From Paenibacillus sp. Soil766 (lineage in GTDB: Bacteria; Bacillota; Bacilli; Paenibacillales; NBRC-103111): a DNA stretch of 64,000 nucleotides. The notes below the pieces were generated by a model that saw only the letters and a list, made by a program, of their open reading frames with translations, made no database searches and was not told where the DNA came from. Shown in pieces: positions 41,534 to 49,572 of the stretch. The stretch's first letter is position 1; every line of letters starts with the position of its first letter. Made by a program: the position numbers and the translations under genes. Location of the stretch: assembly GCF_001428105.1 (NCBI RefSeq), contig NZ_LMSJ01000011.1, positions 1-64,000 on the forward strand, in the 5' to 3' direction.

Positions 41534-41725
41534 ATGTTCAAATGCATTAAACGGCATGCTTCATCAATCGAGAAGCTAGATACTAAGCAACTCTTGAAAA
41601 TATATTTTGCTGCTGTTGCAACAAATACCTCGAGTGATTTTTTAGAGTTGATTGAGAATATCCTTTGCGATCGGGGTGTTTTACTTAATGAACATGATCA
41701 GCGCGAAATCCCAAATGACAGTTAG
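41534..41725 (+). CDS. sda: Sda-like sporulation histidine kinase inhibitor
   Basis: This 63-residue protein has a core 'KLDTKQLLKIYFAA' then 'DFLELIEN' that lines up with Bacillus subtilis Sda, the small helical hairpin that blocks KinA autophosphorylation when replication is perturbed. The typical pattern KLxxxxLLxxYFxA...DFxELIExExxRR is recognisable, with extra residues at both ends. GAGG lies 11 bases upstream of the ATG. It sits alone between the acquired GH-A region and a chimeric pseudogene. A role as an additional, possibly strain-specific, checkpoint protein is inferred. Confidence 0.6.
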   Translation: MFKCIKRHASSIEKLDTKQLLKIYFAAVATNTSSDFLELIENILCDRGVLLNEHDQREIPNDS

Positions 41726-41746: not shown

Positions 41747-43321
41747 ATGTCAGTATTCGGAAAAACGGTGCCGGCTCTTGTCGTAAACGCAAAGAAAAAG
41801 TCCATCTGGGAACAATATTGGGAACATAAATACTTATTCATCATGCTGCTTCCCGTCCTTCTTTATTACGCCATATTCCATTATGGCCCTATGTATGGTG
41901 TGCTCATTGCCTTTCAGGATTATAAGCTTCTGCTTGGCGTATCAGGAAGTCCTTGGGTTGGGTTGCGCCAGAAGCTACTAGGCGCTGATAAGCAGGAAGG
42001 CCTCCTGTATGCCACCGTGAATGGGAAATCCAGCATTCTCTCCTACTCGCTTTCTGAAATGAATCATTGGCGGTATGTTTCTGTCATGCCTGTGGATGCT
42101 TTCTTTGGCAAAACGATTGAAATTCGCAATTGGTTAATCGCGATAGCGGGTATGCTTCTTTTCGTAAACTTGTTAGTCGCCTACTGGATGACGAGAAGAG
42201 CCAATAAGCCAATTGGCACGGAAATTGATGAATTAAAGCTAAATTTAGAGCGAAATAAACCGATTATCCGGCACAACTATATCTTGAGATTGTTAACAGG
42301 CAAAGTTCAACTGAACGATCAGTCGCTGCCCAATGAAAGAGTGACTGGTGTTCAAATTGACCTTCCGTATTATTGTTGTTTCGTCGTACATCTCTTGCCG
42401 CAGGACAACATTCCGTACGAGCTGGTAATGATGCAAGTTTATAATCTTGTGCAAGCGTTGGAGAACGATACGATAAATTGTCGCCTATTTGCCGTTCAGG
42501 ACGAGGATGAACATATTTCGGGTATCGTCAATTTTGATGAAACGACTAGTTTGGATGCGATCTTGGCGCGTATGACGACCATTATGGATACGCAGTTGAA
42601 TCCCAGTTATACGCTGAGTGTCGGTGAAACGTATGCCATTAATGAATCTGACATATCAGATGGGTATCGCGAAGCGAAGGAAGCACTTCCTTATGCTTTT
42701 CTATATCCAGACACCATTATGAAATACGGGGAACTATCAATTCCGCATCGCAAAGAGTCAGGCCCAATTCTCAAATGTCTGCAACAGATGGAAGACGAGC
42801 TAAGAGATGGTTTTGCAGAGCAGACGCTTAAAACAATTCAAGGTCTCGTAGATGATCTGCGAAATGGGCAGTATACGGTGGCCTTTTGCAAATCGGCATT
42901 GACGGATGTAATCACTGTTCTTCGCAAACGTATTCATGCACATGGGCAAACATCGGAAGAAATGCTAGGTTTCGATATCCAGGAAGCATTCAAAAAACTG
43001 CGAAGCATAGCATTGTTTCCGAATTGGGTTGGTCCAATCGTACAGATAGTGGCAGAAAATGGGCAGGTAGGCAAGTTTAAATTAGACATCAAGCTGCAGG
43101 ATAAAATTAATCAATTTATCGAAGTGAATCTAAACAATCAACTCTCGCTAGATCTCGTCGCTGAACATCTGAATATTTCCTCGAACTACGTCAGCAAGCT
43201 ATTTAAAACGGTCAATGGGAAAACATTTACTGAATATGTAACCGAATTGAGGTTGAAGCGGGCACTTGTGATGCTCATGGAAGAAAGGCTTTCTGTGCAG
43301 GATATTTTCTCAGCTGGATAG
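41747..43321 (+). pseudogene. Chimera: LplB permease N-terminus fused in frame to a sensor-AraC regulator
   Basis: Codons 1 to about 73 are the start of an LplB-type permease ('LYYAIFHYGPMYGVLIAFQDY' region through 'GSPWVGL'). The reading frame then continues without a stop into the middle of a sensor-AraC protein: the end of a Cache domain, a membrane segment near residue 125-145, the cytoplasmic linker and the first helix-turn-helix ('LAEHLNISSNYVSKLFKTVNG'). It breaks off after 'LSVQDI', before the second helix-turn-helix and the usual PGQYR tail. The product of 524 codons could be translated but would lack five permease helices and half of the DNA-binding domain. It most likely arose by deletion through an operon. 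Confidence 0.75.
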
Positions 43322-44201
43322 TGCGCTTGGTGCTGATTTCAATGAACTTGCCCACAGTGAAGGCATTCGGGAAAGCGGTTATTTCCCTATCTATATGGAG
43401 GGGCCCTCCGGTTTGTATTTTAATTTTGCCGATTGCTTTACGGAGTTGAACTACCGAGATAATGAGGGCATGTCATGGTTGGCGACGAAGTTTGACCTGC
43501 CAATTCTTACACAGTGGCGCGTTGGCATTGTTGATCAAGGGGTACAGCCTTTCAAGAACCCGATGGACTTATTGTGGTACCAACCCAATCATAGGATGGC
43601 TGCTGTACATGATCTTCCTTTAGATGAAGGGCATAACACGCTCGTAATCAATCCTCGTCCGCGTAGTGGAGATTCGGATTCCAATCCAGACCAAGATCCA
43701 CTGGCCAAAGGAGCTATTACACTGTTTCAAGCTAGCGCGATGGAATGCTATGCCACAATGGACCTGACAGCGGCTTATGCTCAGGCGGCAAATAAGGTAG
43801 TGCGTGAGATTGCGCTTGTCGACAATCGTCAGCACATCCGAATTCATGACGAGATTGCGTTGAAAGAGGCGGGTGAGATTCTATGGTTCCTGCACATCAA
43901 CAGCGAGGCTTCAGTCGAAATCATGGAGTCAGGGCGAACAGCGATTTTAACCATTGGGAATAAAAGGTTACAGATTCAACTGGCATGCGCCGAAGAAGCA
44001 AAATTTACTGTCATGGAGGCGAAGCCTCTTCCGACATCGCCGGACCCAGAGGTGCAATGGACGTATCCACAGTGGGGGAATCCGCGCTACCGTGAAATGC
44101 ATCAGCCCAAGCAGAAGCTGGCGATTCACCTAATGCACACGCAGAAGGTAGCCTTAACGATTTTGATAATCCCATTTTTTGGGGAACACTTATTACATTA
44201 G
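43305..44201 (+). pseudogene. Heparinase II/III-like protein, C-terminal fragment
   Basis: Directly overlapping the broken end of the regulator, a different frame gives 'FSQLDSALGADFNELAHS', then 'YFPIYMEGPSGLYFNFADC'. It runs to a stop at 44201 with a C-terminal beta-sheet region ('WFLHINSEASVEI') typical of heparinase II/III-family polysaccharide lyases. There is no start codon at the join, and the N-terminal helical and catalytic domains are missing. Together with the preceding chimera it records a lost permease...regulator...lyase locus. Confidence 0.65.
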
Positions 44202-44302: not shown

Positions 44303-44424
44303 AACAACCCGGATGTAGCCAGCGTCGACAAGACAGGAAATGTGAAACCCATCAGCATCAGCGACGGGATGTCTATTGAAGGAGGCTATTGGGCAAGCAC
44401 AACAGTCTTTCTCGATATTAGTTA
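44303..44424 (+). pseudogene. Big2 (bacterial Ig-like) domain scrap
   Basis: A 40-codon frame reads 'NNPDVASVDKTGNVKPIS', the hallmark of a Big2 domain (SSNPxVAxVDxxGxVxxxS), then diverges and stops. A stop codon lies immediately before it. It is probably a relic of a secreted or S-layer protein like the fragment at 47947. Confidence 0.5.
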
Positions 44425-44451
44425 GCGCAAACACAGGACTGAATTTGTCAG

Positions 44452-44525
44452 AAGTACTTCATAACTAATTTGTAAATGAAACAATTTGGCTGAAAATTCA
44501 CTTCAAAACCAATTTGTCATCCAAC
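44452..44525 (-). repeat. Tn7-like end: inner TnsB-like site plus terminal repeat
   Basis: The outer copy (44498-44525) reads on the minus strand TGTTGGATGACAAATTGG then TTTTGAAGTG. An inner copy at 44452-44474 lacks the tip. The spacing of a terminal and an internal site is the arrangement expected of a Tn7-like end. The element would lie to the left. The tip matches that at 93-117. Confidence 0.6.
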
Positions 44526-44607
44526 ATGAATGACGACGTCATACACGTTAATGCACATATAGATAATGTTCCGGTTTATCAAACTACTGATTTTATGATT
44601 TCTACTG

Positions 44608-44656
44608 TGACCCGGAGGGTGGACACTTTTAAAAAAAGTGCTCAGCTTCCGGGTCA
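44608..44656 (+). terminator. Nested hairpin (TGACCCGGA/TCCGGGTCA)
   Basis: A 9-bp outer stem encloses an inner CACTTTT/AAAAGTG hairpin and is followed by TTTA. It may be a terminator or a dispersed palindromic element. No intact gene ends before it. Confidence 0.45.
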
Positions 44657-44785
44657 TTTATGTCAAATGGTAGTCATGCTAAAAAAGTAAGATTTATCAA
44701 GTTAAAAAGGAAGATCCATCATTCTCGATAGATTGAGGATAGGCTTATAATAAATGTAAATGTAATTATGAGGAGGATGAATAAA

Positions 44786-46306
44786 ATGTACCAGGAGAAA
44801 CAGTATGATATTGTAATTTACGGAGGGACTGCGGCAGGTATTATGGCTGCTGTTCAAGCTAAAAGAATGTCTAAAAATGTAGTCGTTATCGAGCCAAGTC
44901 AGCGGATTGGGGGCTTGACCACTGGAGGCCTGGGAGATACGGACTTCGGGATGAAACAAGCTATCGGAGGCTTATCCTTGGAGTTTTACAAACGGGTAGC
45001 CCAGAAATACTCGCATGACGGTGCTTGCTGGCTGTTTGAACCTAAAGTAGCGCTCGAAGTTATGCAAGATTTGGTGGCGGAACATAACATTGAAGTCATA
45101 TACGGAGAAAGACTACGTCTAAAAGACGGGGTTACAAAGAAAGGTTTAAAAATTATCTCCATTTGCATGGAGTCCGGGAACCTCTATCAAGGCAAAGTGT
45201 TTATTGATGCTACGTATGAAGGGGATTTGATGGGTAAATCGAACGTATCCTATTTTGTCGGCCGGGAGTCCAATTCACAATATGGGGAGACATTAAACGG
45301 CATTCATCCTGGCAATGAACTCAATGAGCTACCCAGCGGGATTGATCCGTATGTCATTAAAGGGGTACCCTCGAGCGGCTTGCTTTTGCGTGTCAATCCT
45401 CACCGTGGTGGAAATTTTGGTGATGGGGACACCAAGCTTCAAGCTTATAACTTCCGCATGTGTTTGACGAATAATCCGGACAACCGCCTGGAGATCGAAA
45501 AGCCTGAGGGATATAACGAAGCCGATTATGAAATTTTGTTCCGGGCCATCGAGCAAGGACAAAGTTCGAAATTTTTTAAATTGAATCTGGTAACACCAGA
45601 TAAGACAGACTCCAATAACAATAGTGGCATTTCTACGGATTATAATGGAATGAACCATAGTTATGCAGAGGCGGATTATCTTGAGCGGGAACACATGTGG
45701 CATGCTCATCGCGTCTATCAGCAAGGCTATGTGTGGACCATTCAAAATCATCCGCGAGTACCAGAGGAAATTCGGGCAGTCTACAAGCCGTGGGGCTTGC
45801 CGCTCGATGAATTTATCGAGACAGGTCACTGGACTCCACAGTTGTACGTCAGAGAATCCCGCAGAATGGTTAGTGACTATGTAGTGACCGAGCATGTGGT
45901 TAGATTGGAAAATCAAGTAGCGGATTCCGTTGGAATGGGATCCTTTGCCATGGACTCGCACCACACCCAATATTATGTAAACGAAGACGGGCATGTTAGC
46001 ACAGAAGGCGGATTTTACGTAAAATTAAAAGCGCCTTATCCGATAAGCTATCGAGCAATTGTGCCAAAACGGACAGAGTGCACCAATCTAATTGTGCCAG
46101 TATGCGTTTCGGCTACCCATGCAGCCTACGGTTCGATCCGGATGGAGCCTGTATTTATGATCCTGGGACAATCTGCTGCGGCCGCAGCAGTTCTAGCGCT
46201 TGATACGGATGGCATCGTTCAAAATGTAAAGTATGAGCAGCTTCATTCCTTACTCGTTCAAGAGAATCAGGTATTATACGTAGACGTCCTAAGTCCGCAT
46301 CAATAA
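44786..46306 (+). CDS. FAD-dependent oxidoreductase (FAD_oxidored family)
   Basis: This 506-residue protein has an N-terminal Rossmann dinucleotide motif 'VIYGGTAAGIMAAVQAKRM' and the following 'VVIEPSQRIGGLTTGGLGDTD', both characteristic of the FAD_oxidored group often found in polysaccharide-use loci. There is no signal peptide. The ATG at 44786 follows AGGAGG at 44771-44776. An ATG six codons earlier overlaps the ribosome site and is rejected. It is convergent with, and overlaps by 7 bases, the AraC gene. The substrate is unknown, and oxidation of a sugar or sugar acid is an inference from context. Confidence 0.8.
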   Translation: MYQEKQYDIVIYGGTAAGIMAAVQAKRMSKNVVVIEPSQRIGGLTTGGLGDTDFGMKQAIGGLSLEFYKRVAQKYSHDGACWLFEPKVALEVMQDLVAEHNIEVIYGERLRLKDGVTKKGLKIISICMESGNLYQGKVFIDATYEGDLMGKSNVSYFVGRESNSQYGETLNGIHPGNELNELPSGIDPYVIKGVPSSGLLLRVNPHRGGNFGDGDTKLQAYNFRMCLTNNPDNRLEIEKPEGYNEADYEILFRAIEQGQSSKFFKLNLVTPDKTDSNNNSGISTDYNGMNHSYAEADYLEREHMWHAHRVYQQGYVWTIQNHPRVPEEIRAVYKPWGLPLDEFIETGHWTPQLYVRESRRMVSDYVVTEHVVRLENQVADSVGMGSFAMDSHHTQYYVNEDGHVSTEGGFYVKLKAPYPISYRAIVPKRTECTNLIVPVCVSATHAAYGSIRMEPVFMILGQSAAAAAVLALDTDGIVQNVKYEQLHSLLVQENQVLYVDVLSPHQ

Positions 46307-47130
46307 GGATTGAACCCATATCCAAATTTACGCCGGTATTCTCCTGGGGGATGTCCAAATCGTTCGCGGAAAACTCGGCAAAAATGAGGGTAACTCTCAA
46401 AGCCTGTCTTTTCAGCAACCTGCTCCAGCGCAAGATTGCTGTAGAGCACCTGCTGCTGCGCAAGCTTTAGCCTAACGTCAATACAGTAGGCGAACAGCGA
46501 TTGGCCAAAAGTGGCTTTAAATAGATACGAGGAGCGAGAGACGCTTAATCCTACAGAGGCCGATATTTTTTCCAAACTAAGAGGTTCATTTGCATGACTT
46601 TCTATAAATAGCTTAAGTTTATGAGCGATATCTGCTCCTTTGGTGCGTTGTTTGCTCTGAATCTCTTGCTCCAGTGTCAAACAAAGCGTTCTAAGAAGAT
46701 AGTCCATGATCTCCACTTGGTTCTGCATGACTTTTTTCTTTTCGCTGATAATATGCTTCCATAGGGTAATGACCGTATCGTTAAAGCCAATGTTTGTTTT
46801 AGTGGGCAAGTCTTTGTTTTTCCACCACGATTCCAGCCATCCCCCGTTGCCGGCCAGGAAATAGTCGCTGACAGGTTGAATCGCACCCGACTCCGGAGCG
46901 TTTCGGGGCTGCACATTGAGTTCGTATGGCTGATCAGGAGGATAAATGAGCAGGTCACCGGGGATGATGGTCTCGGATTTCCCTCCCACCAGTGCGCGAC
47001 AGGATCCTTCTGCCTGAAGCCGGAAGAGGTAGAAGTTCAGCCCGTCTTTATACTTAACGGAGTGGGGCTTTGTGTGGGTGAAATAATTAGCATAAATGAC
47101 GTAGGATTGGTGTTGACCTGACTTCGTCAT
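46300..47130 (-). CDS. AraC-family transcriptional regulator
   Basis: This 276-residue cytosolic regulator has an N-terminal cupin-like sugar-sensing domain ('LVGGKSETIIPGDLLIYPPDQPYEL', about residues 45-75). The C-terminal AraC double helix-turn-helix is 'ISASVGLSVSRSSYLFKATFG' and 'KTGFESYPHFCRVFRERFG', ending PGEYRRKF. It is divergent from the GH130 fragment 89 bases away, suggesting that it activated that gene and perhaps the FAD oxidoreductase gene as well. Confidence 0.88.
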   Translation of the reverse strand: MTKSGQHQSYVIYANYFTHTKPHSVKYKDGLNFYLFRLQAEGSCRALVGGKSETIIPGDLLIYPPDQPYELNVQPRNAPESGAIQPVSDYFLAGNGGWLESWWKNKDLPTKTNIGFNDTVITLWKHIISEKKKVMQNQVEIMDYLLRTLCLTLEQEIQSKQRTKGADIAHKLKLFIESHANEPLSLEKISASVGLSVSRSSYLFKATFGQSLFAYCIDVRLKLAQQQVLYSNLALEQVAEKTGFESYPHFCRVFRERFGHPPGEYRRKFGYGFNPY

Positions 47131-47219
47131 AGTGAAGATACCTCCAGAAATTAGCTATTCTGCTCCGATTATATAGTTTCTTCGTTGAGATTGACAGAGG
47201 AAAGAGAGGAATACGGATA

Positions 47220-47945
47220 ATGAAACCAAATTTTAAATATTTAAATAAGCCGGTATTAGAACCGGTACCAGGCTGTGACTGGGCCAGCAAAATGGTGCTG
47301 AATCCTGCCATCGTACAAGATCCAGAGTCGAGCACATTGCATATGTTGTTTAGGGCAACGGGTCCTTGGGCACAAAAGCGGAGAGAGGGCTGCCACGACC
47401 CATACCCAATTTTCCTAGGCTATGCTACTAGCGAAGATAATGGGGAAACATGGGAAGCCGATTTCAGCGAGCCAGCGCTTTCGCCGGCGCTAGGCTATGA
47501 AGAACACGAACTTTACATTGCAGATATTCATGGAAATCGCGTACGCAATTATGCAAATGGCTGTATTGAAGATCCCCGTATCTTCCCAATTGAAGGGGAG
47601 CTATACGTTAGTGTGGCTTGTCGCCCATTTCCTCCGGGCCCTTATTGGCTGTCGGATGTTCAGACGAGATTTGAATATGTACCAGAGTGGATATTCAATG
47701 GAAATGAAGTTGAAGACACTTTTGTTAAAACAGCGCGCTCCAATGATACTGTCACGGTGCTATATAAATTAGATTTGCAGCAGTTGAAAATGCGTAACTA
47801 TAGCGCAGCATTCCACTATATAGGTCCTCTGACGGAAGGGCACGTTAGCGATAATCGGGACGTTTTTCTTTTTCCCGACAAAATGATGATTCAAGGGAAT
47901 TTGCAATATGTGATGCTTCATCGTCCAATGAACGTGTTACCGTGT
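47220..47945 (+). pseudogene. GH130-type phosphorylase/mannosidase, C-terminally truncated
   Basis: The first 240 or so residues are recognisable as a GH130 five-bladed propeller: 'NPAIVQDPESSTLHMLFRAT', 'GCIEDPRIF' and 'DNRDVFLFP' followed by 'YVMLHRP'. Similarity ends at about 47930, and the frame then reads meaningless sequence to a stop at 48017. About a third of the enzyme is missing. It would have acted in the cytoplasm on beta-mannosides or related sugars. The join is to an S-layer protein fragment. Confidence 0.7.
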
Positions 47946-47946
47946 T

Positions 47947-49572
47947 GTGGTGGGGCAAACCGTAACAATAACGGCAGAGGGCAACAGACAGAGCATTACA
48001 CCGACAGTAATCGGTGACGAAAGATATTACCCGACTACATGGAGTTCCACAGAAGGAGGCAAGTCGGGGGTATTTACCGTAACCGGACAGGTATATTCCT
48101 CCGGCTACACGTCGACTTTAGCAGGCAATTACACCATAACGGCTACATTCCAGAAGCAAACCTGGAATAGGACTGCGTGGATCAATAGCATTACCGATAC
48201 CAAAACCATAAGTTTGACTGTAAGTGCCGTTATAACAGGAGATAACAGCGGATCCGGCAACGGCAATTCCGACAGCGGTGAAGGTACATCATCGCCACCA
48301 GCAACAGGTAATACTGGCGCAGACATTCCGGTTAACGATAAAGAGGAAAATGCCGGCATAGTAACAACCATTCAAGAAGGCGATAAAACCGTGACTACCG
48401 TTTCCATTGACCAGAGCAAGGTGGAACAAAAGTTGTCACAGGAAGGAAAGGGAGCCATAGTGACTATTCCAGTCACAGACAAATCTGACGTGGTAGTCTA
48501 TGAATTGACCGGGCAGACGGTCAAGAGTATGGAAGCCAAGGAAGCAGTGCTGCAGATAAAAACGGACAATGTAATTTATACGCTGCCTGCAGCATACATC
48601 AATATGATGGCCGTCTCACAACAGATTGGGGATCAGGTGGCATTGCAGGATATTAAAGTCAACATAATGGTAGCAACTCCTCCAACCGATACGGTAAAGA
48701 TGGTTCAAGATACTGCAAACGAAAACAGTTATCAGATTGTTGTCAATCCGGTAGAGTTCAATATTACGTTCACCAGTGGCAGCAAAACGGTGGACGTTTC
48801 AACATTCAAAGGCTTTGTGGAAAGGGCCATAGCGATTCCGGATGGAATAGATTCGAGCAAGATAACGACAGGCATTGTCCTTAATACTGACGGAACCTTC
48901 TCCCATGTGCCTACGACAATTTCTATCATCGACGGAAGACGCTACGCCAAAATCAACAGCTTGACCAACAGCACCTATTCGGTCATTTACAGCTCCAAAA
49001 CTTTTGCAGACGTTAATGCGCATTGGGCAAAAGAAGCGGTGAATGACATGGGGTCCAGACTTGTCATTGATGGTAGCGGAGATGGAAGGTTTGAGCCCGA
49101 CAGGGACATTACCCGTGCGGAATTTGCTGGGATTATAGTAAAGGGGCTTGGGGTAATGAGGCCCGGTACCGGTAAGGATATCTTCAGCGATGTAACCAAA
49201 GGCAATTGGTATTACGATGCCGTGGCCACTGCTTACGAATACGGTATTATAGACGGATACGGAAACGGTACATTCGGGCCTGCGGATAAAATTACCCGCG
49301 AGCAGGCTATGACAATGACGGCAAGAGCAATGAAAATTACTGGATTACAAGCAGAGTTTAAAGAGAATGAAGCTGAAAACCTGCTTTCAGGGTTTGCAGA
49401 TGCCGGTTATTCTGCTGACTATGCGAAAAGCAGTATTGTATCGTGCATAAAGACCGGAATTATTACCGGCCGGGATGGCAATTTAGTGGCGCCAAAAAAC
49501 AATATTACCCGTGCGGAGGTTGCTGTATTTGTAAGACGGCTTTTACAAAAATCAGGATTGATTTTAGAGTAG
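47947..49572 (+). pseudogene. SLH-domain surface protein, N-terminally truncated
   Basis: The C-terminal 541 codons of a cell-wall-attached protein survive. An Ig-like stretch begins in mid-domain ('VGQTVTITAEG'), then a Gly/Ser-rich linker, a beta-rich domain and three SLH motifs ('FADVNAHWAKEAVNDM', 'FSDVTKGNWYYDAVATA', 'FADAGYSADYAKSSI') that bind pyruvylated wall polymer. There is no ribosome site or signal peptide at the first possible start. The fragment begins where the GH130 fragment ends, in another frame. The SLH part itself looks undamaged. Confidence 0.75.

Follow-up and report, generated by a model that had tools for sequence, protein, structure and literature searches.

Organization of the locus

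Pieces of three genes lie in line on one strand of contig C11, within the window (the whole stretch of 64,000 nucleotides that was analyzed). These correspond to an LplB-type ABC sugar permease, a dCache-AraC regulator, and a heparinase II/III-like lyase (Table 1), as an earlier note on this DNA had proposed, and for each of them the homology is far beyond chance. The contig belongs to a genome of 8.26 Mb in 60 contigs, whose family relatives include Paenibacillus species. The same note described a permease start running in frame into the middle of a regulator, and the alignments agree with this description, with the permease match ending at 41965 and the regulator match starting at 41969. Both are part of an open reading frame of 524 codons (41747-43321, plus strand), the length that had been given for this first part.

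The first 73 codons of this frame correspond to the N terminus of the permease, of which 57-58 residues align at 77% identity with the permeases of genomes G016, G023, and G026 in tblastn searches, the alignment stopping at 41965. At the nucleotide level, an identity of 75-82% is observed up to 41964 (blastn). The fragment is then 57-73 residues long, being the gene cut after approximately 73 residues, and no match to the BPD_transp_1 transport domain (PF00528) expected of an LplB-type permease was found by Pfam in the 524-codon frame. Positions 41534-41725 hold a 63-residue open reading frame with a faint likeness to the sporulation inhibitor Sda (Pfam E-value of 0.0016, below the cut-off).

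The regulator piece comprises the end of the sensor, the second transmembrane segment, the linker, and the first part of the helix-turn-helix domain. Compared with intact dCache-AraC proteins of 741-774 residues, it shows 35-36% identity over approximately 445 residues (E-value of about 1e-91), and for most relatives the homology ends at 43306. The Pfam match to HTH_18 covers only positions 2-51 of 80, so the second helix-turn-helix is missing and the complete double domain of the AraC family is not present.

The lyase homology spans from about 43293 to 44177-44192. Its reading frame (ORF 43395-44201) is open from before 43305 and stops at 44201, near the natural end of the lyase. This confirms that the broken end of the regulator, which reaches 43306, overlaps the C-terminal part of a lyase in another frame, about 14 bases fitting the regulator and lyase parents alike. 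The match of this piece to Hepar_II_III_C (PF07940) is weak and partial (E-value of 1e-5). Alignment with four relatives, P. koleovorans among them, reveals that approximately 88 residues are skipped, with the lyase running to PLD (43625) and picking up at an EGHN motif (43626). Since the conserved HGDLDxGxFVLDALGVRWA sits in the skipped block, a portion of the lyase core is gone. Moreover, of 80 homologous loci in public genomes, the 59 that were measurable all retain the block, at 213-267 nt and always as a multiple of three; by this length, the piece falls short of the complete core that a Hepar_II_III_C domain would have in a heparinase II/III-like protein. Thus, the two joins previously noted exist, and the number of joins is at least three, the one inside the lyase at 43623-43628 having been missed.

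No stop codon or frameshift is found inside the permease, regulator, or lyase pieces, and the frames have stayed open across approximately 745 codons, which suggests that the deletions happened recently. Within the genus, nothing closely related to the lyase piece was found. On contig C54 of the same genome (271398-273657; locus L055, 10819-11682), three consecutive short open reading frames match parts of large proteins of lyase type, one frame matching the window lyase at 33-35%; this is possibly another relic.

Table 1. Coordinates of the gene pieces and joins in the window and of the other broken permease genes in the genome.
Feature	Position	Strand	Evidence or remarks
LplB-type ABC sugar permease, N-terminal fragment with first TM segment	41747-41965	+	Homology from ~41795
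Join 1, permease to regulator, frame kept	41965-41969		~4.2 kb lost, by spacing in relatives
dCache-AraC regulator, middle part (aa ~259-704 of 741)	41969-43306	+	36% identical to the regulator of G016
Join 2, regulator to lyase, frame shifted	43293-43307		~4.1 kb lost, by spacing in P. koleovorans
Heparinase II/III-like lyase, middle part	43307-43625	+	~aa 366-470 of P. koleovorans ORF; 42% identity over 102 residues to P. koleovorans (G030)
Join 3, lyase core shortened in frame by 213-267 nt	43623-43628		Homologue comparison and alignment
Heparinase II/III-like lyase, C-terminal part	43626-44201	+	36-50% identity to relatives; Pfam PF07940
Other broken permease, truncated	C54:82020
Other broken permease, frameshifted	C27:94179-95351
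Other broken permease, frameshifted	C2:237394-238475

The presumed parental operon in relatives

An intact operon of the kind that the earlier note wanted to see in relatives was found with a lyase in P. koleovorans NBRC 103111 and, for the part from permease to regulator, in G016, G023, G026, G019, and G377. In these five genomes, the permease, a second permease, a gene of binding-protein size, and the regulator are adjacent. The distance between the equivalents of positions 41965 (permease) and 41969 (regulator) is 4205 bp in G016, 4214 bp in G023, 4212 bp in G026, 4230 bp in G019, and 4184 bp in G377, and this near-constant spacing indicates that join 1 removed approximately 4.2 kb. These LplB-YtcP-binding protein-dCache/AraC operons (L048-L051 in the first four and L065 in G377) are the closest relatives of the window, with 72-77% identity for the permease (61% in G019) and 35-36% for the regulator. 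However, in contrast to the window, they are intact and are followed by no lyase of the window kind.

The sugar ABC-transporter/lyase operon of P. koleovorans (L141/L064) shares gene order and strand with the window, lyase included. On one strand, it runs permease, permease, binding-protein-sized gene, dCache-AraC regulator, AP-endonuclease-like gene, GFO/IDH/MocA gene, and lyase. Unlike the window, it is intact, and the AP-endonuclease-like and GFO/IDH/MocA genes separate the regulator from the lyase, the interval equivalent to join 2 being approximately 4134 bp. Its regulator is only about 21% identical to that of the window. Also, the position of a lyase varies among relatives: one lies upstream in P. 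sabuli, and one that differs from that of the window lies upstream in G023.

The idea of an ordinary operon that has lost its interior is well supported by these comparisons. As would be expected for an operon relic, pieces of several genes keep the ancestral order and strand, and parts essential to function have been lost, namely by truncation of the helix-turn-helix domain, by the cut of the permease, and by the gap in the lyase core. Searches for a close intact parent covered the genus, the family, 395 genomes of the order, and the named genome collection and gave none, so that the origin of all pieces from one operon is what we infer, and the lyase parent could differ from that of the permease and the regulator.

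Nature of the joins

None of the three joins carries a transposase or a repeat, and they are not linked by any direct repeat of at least 16 bp. This makes both recombination between homologous repeats and a false join by the assembler unlikely. The microhomology at the window joins is not fixable to the base, given that the closest parent genes share only about 36-50% protein identity. A related case is legible on contig C39 of the same genome, where a paralogue of the neighboring FAD-oxidoreductase/AraC pair has two internal deletions when compared with the intact window copy (44682-47178), with an overlap of 3-4 bp at one deletion join and of 0 bp at the other. End joining or short-homology slippage would fit as the origin of the window deletions.

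A probable dismantled operon and the alternatives

The stretch is very probably a nonfunctional relic of a polysaccharide-utilization operon, whose interior was removed by at least three deletions without long repeats. The ancestral operon would have contained the permease, a second permease, a binding protein, the dCache-AraC regulator, further enzyme genes, and the heparinase-like lyase. Of the deletions, two would have taken out about 4 kb each and one about 0.25 kb, joining the leftovers of what may have been a single operon. Short-homology or end-joining repair could have produced them, a Ku gene being present in the genome, and they may have been tolerated through the redundancy of the locus, with more than 100 related permeases in the genome. 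The hybrid frames would then be open owing to recent decay and not to use. Deletion-derived bacterial pseudogenes in general likewise consist of gene remnants that an internal deletion has brought together in the absence of long repeats. Compared with these, the window has three joins in 1.7 kb with the frames still open, and hence its deletion history is legible.

It is unlikely that the pieces are independent fragments of different operons, assembled by rearrangement or mobile elements, instead of one operon shrunk in place. The order and strand agree with the P. koleovorans operon and with the permease-regulator order of the five relatives, and the joins are free of transposases and repeats, although the lyase piece lacks close relatives in the genus, the synteny of the neighborhood is poor, and genus-wide short repeats lie just downstream (44440-44531 and 44604-44728). 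Even less probable is an assembly error, that is, false joins with the full operon present in the genome. The assembly is a draft in 60 contigs; nonetheless, the genome is 99.6% complete, a second close copy of the regulator piece or of the lyase piece is not found in it, and the joins offer no repeat able to mislead an assembler, which would have had to make three independent false joins in the ancestral order.

The possibility that the hybrid is in use, with the 524-residue protein acting as a regulator anchored in the membrane, or with the lyase still employed in its shortened form, deserves very little credence. Join 1 is in frame and the 524-codon frame is open; the first transmembrane segment of the permease plus the second one of the regulator could provide the anchoring, and the absence of stops and frameshifts within the pieces could also mean use. 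However, no Shine-Dalgarno sequence is visible by eye before the ATG at 41747 in GCGCTAATTAATAGCCCATAATG, whereas the G377 and G023 permeases have one of the GGAG type (also by eye), the AraC domain is without its second helix-turn-helix, the conserved core block is gone from the lyase, and the 524-residue hybrid was not seen in any of the relatives searched. Also, a promoter scan gave no excess, with fewer sites than in shuffled sequences. The suggestion in the earlier note that a membrane-anchored hybrid might be made thus receives no support as regards a useful protein, given the lack of a visible Shine-Dalgarno sequence, the promoter scan, and the partial HTH_18 match. Two ideas combined, that one event made all three joins (multi-break repair, e.g., by Ku/LigD acting on the damaged chromosome of a spore) and that the cell makes the hybrid as a protein anchored in the membrane, are likewise extremely improbable. 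Judging from the sequence, a dead relic would be the simplest reading, with a visible Shine-Dalgarno sequence, the second helix-turn-helix, the transport domain, and lyase core residues all lacking.

The operon relic is a gene graveyard of an ordinary sort, remarkable only in being fresh and readable, and as such it offers a clean, legible case of deletions dismantling a redundant sugar operon in a bacterium of Paenibacillus type. It also calls for caution in annotation, since the 524-residue frame would be named an AraC regulator and the 268-residue frame a lyase, and, as far as their sequences tell, neither is likely to work.

Gene decay elsewhere in the genome

When the whole genome was searched with an intact permease, approximately 110 strong matches were obtained, nearly all of full length, and about four broken copies, including that of the window (Table 1). 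Based on this small number, a genome-wide deletion process was rejected. Also, when 0.97 Mb of this genome and 0.4 Mb of the closed congener G024 were screened all against all, truncated genes were not clearly in excess in this genome; the screen is crude, with many low-coverage rows due to shared domains, and few true truncations were seen by eye in either genome. Gene decay in this genome is sporadic.

No RNA families were found, and a bacterial-Ig-like remnant suspected by eye at 44303-44425 was dropped, having no Pfam match. The intergenic repeat at 44440-44531 is short, contains no open reading frame, and occurs genus-wide at 80-88% identity, with some copies inverted. The stretch at 44604-44728, upstream of the FAD-oxidoreductase gene, is hairpin-forming, and many genomes of the family and order contain short matches to it.

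On contig C39, positions 2962-6083 of L070 form a mosaic, in which the end of a CBM96 protein and a 164-residue regulator N terminus running into unrelated sequence accompany the FAD-oxidoreductase paralogue with its two internal deletions, beside a broken AraC gene. Finally, a second broken-gene join is observed in the window 4 kb downstream, at about 47930, where a GH130-like gene (beta-1,2-mannobiose phosphorylase type; 47220-48017) runs into an SLH-domain protein (47947-49572). Its homology is lost past approximately 47928, and it overlaps the SLH-domain frame in another reading frame.
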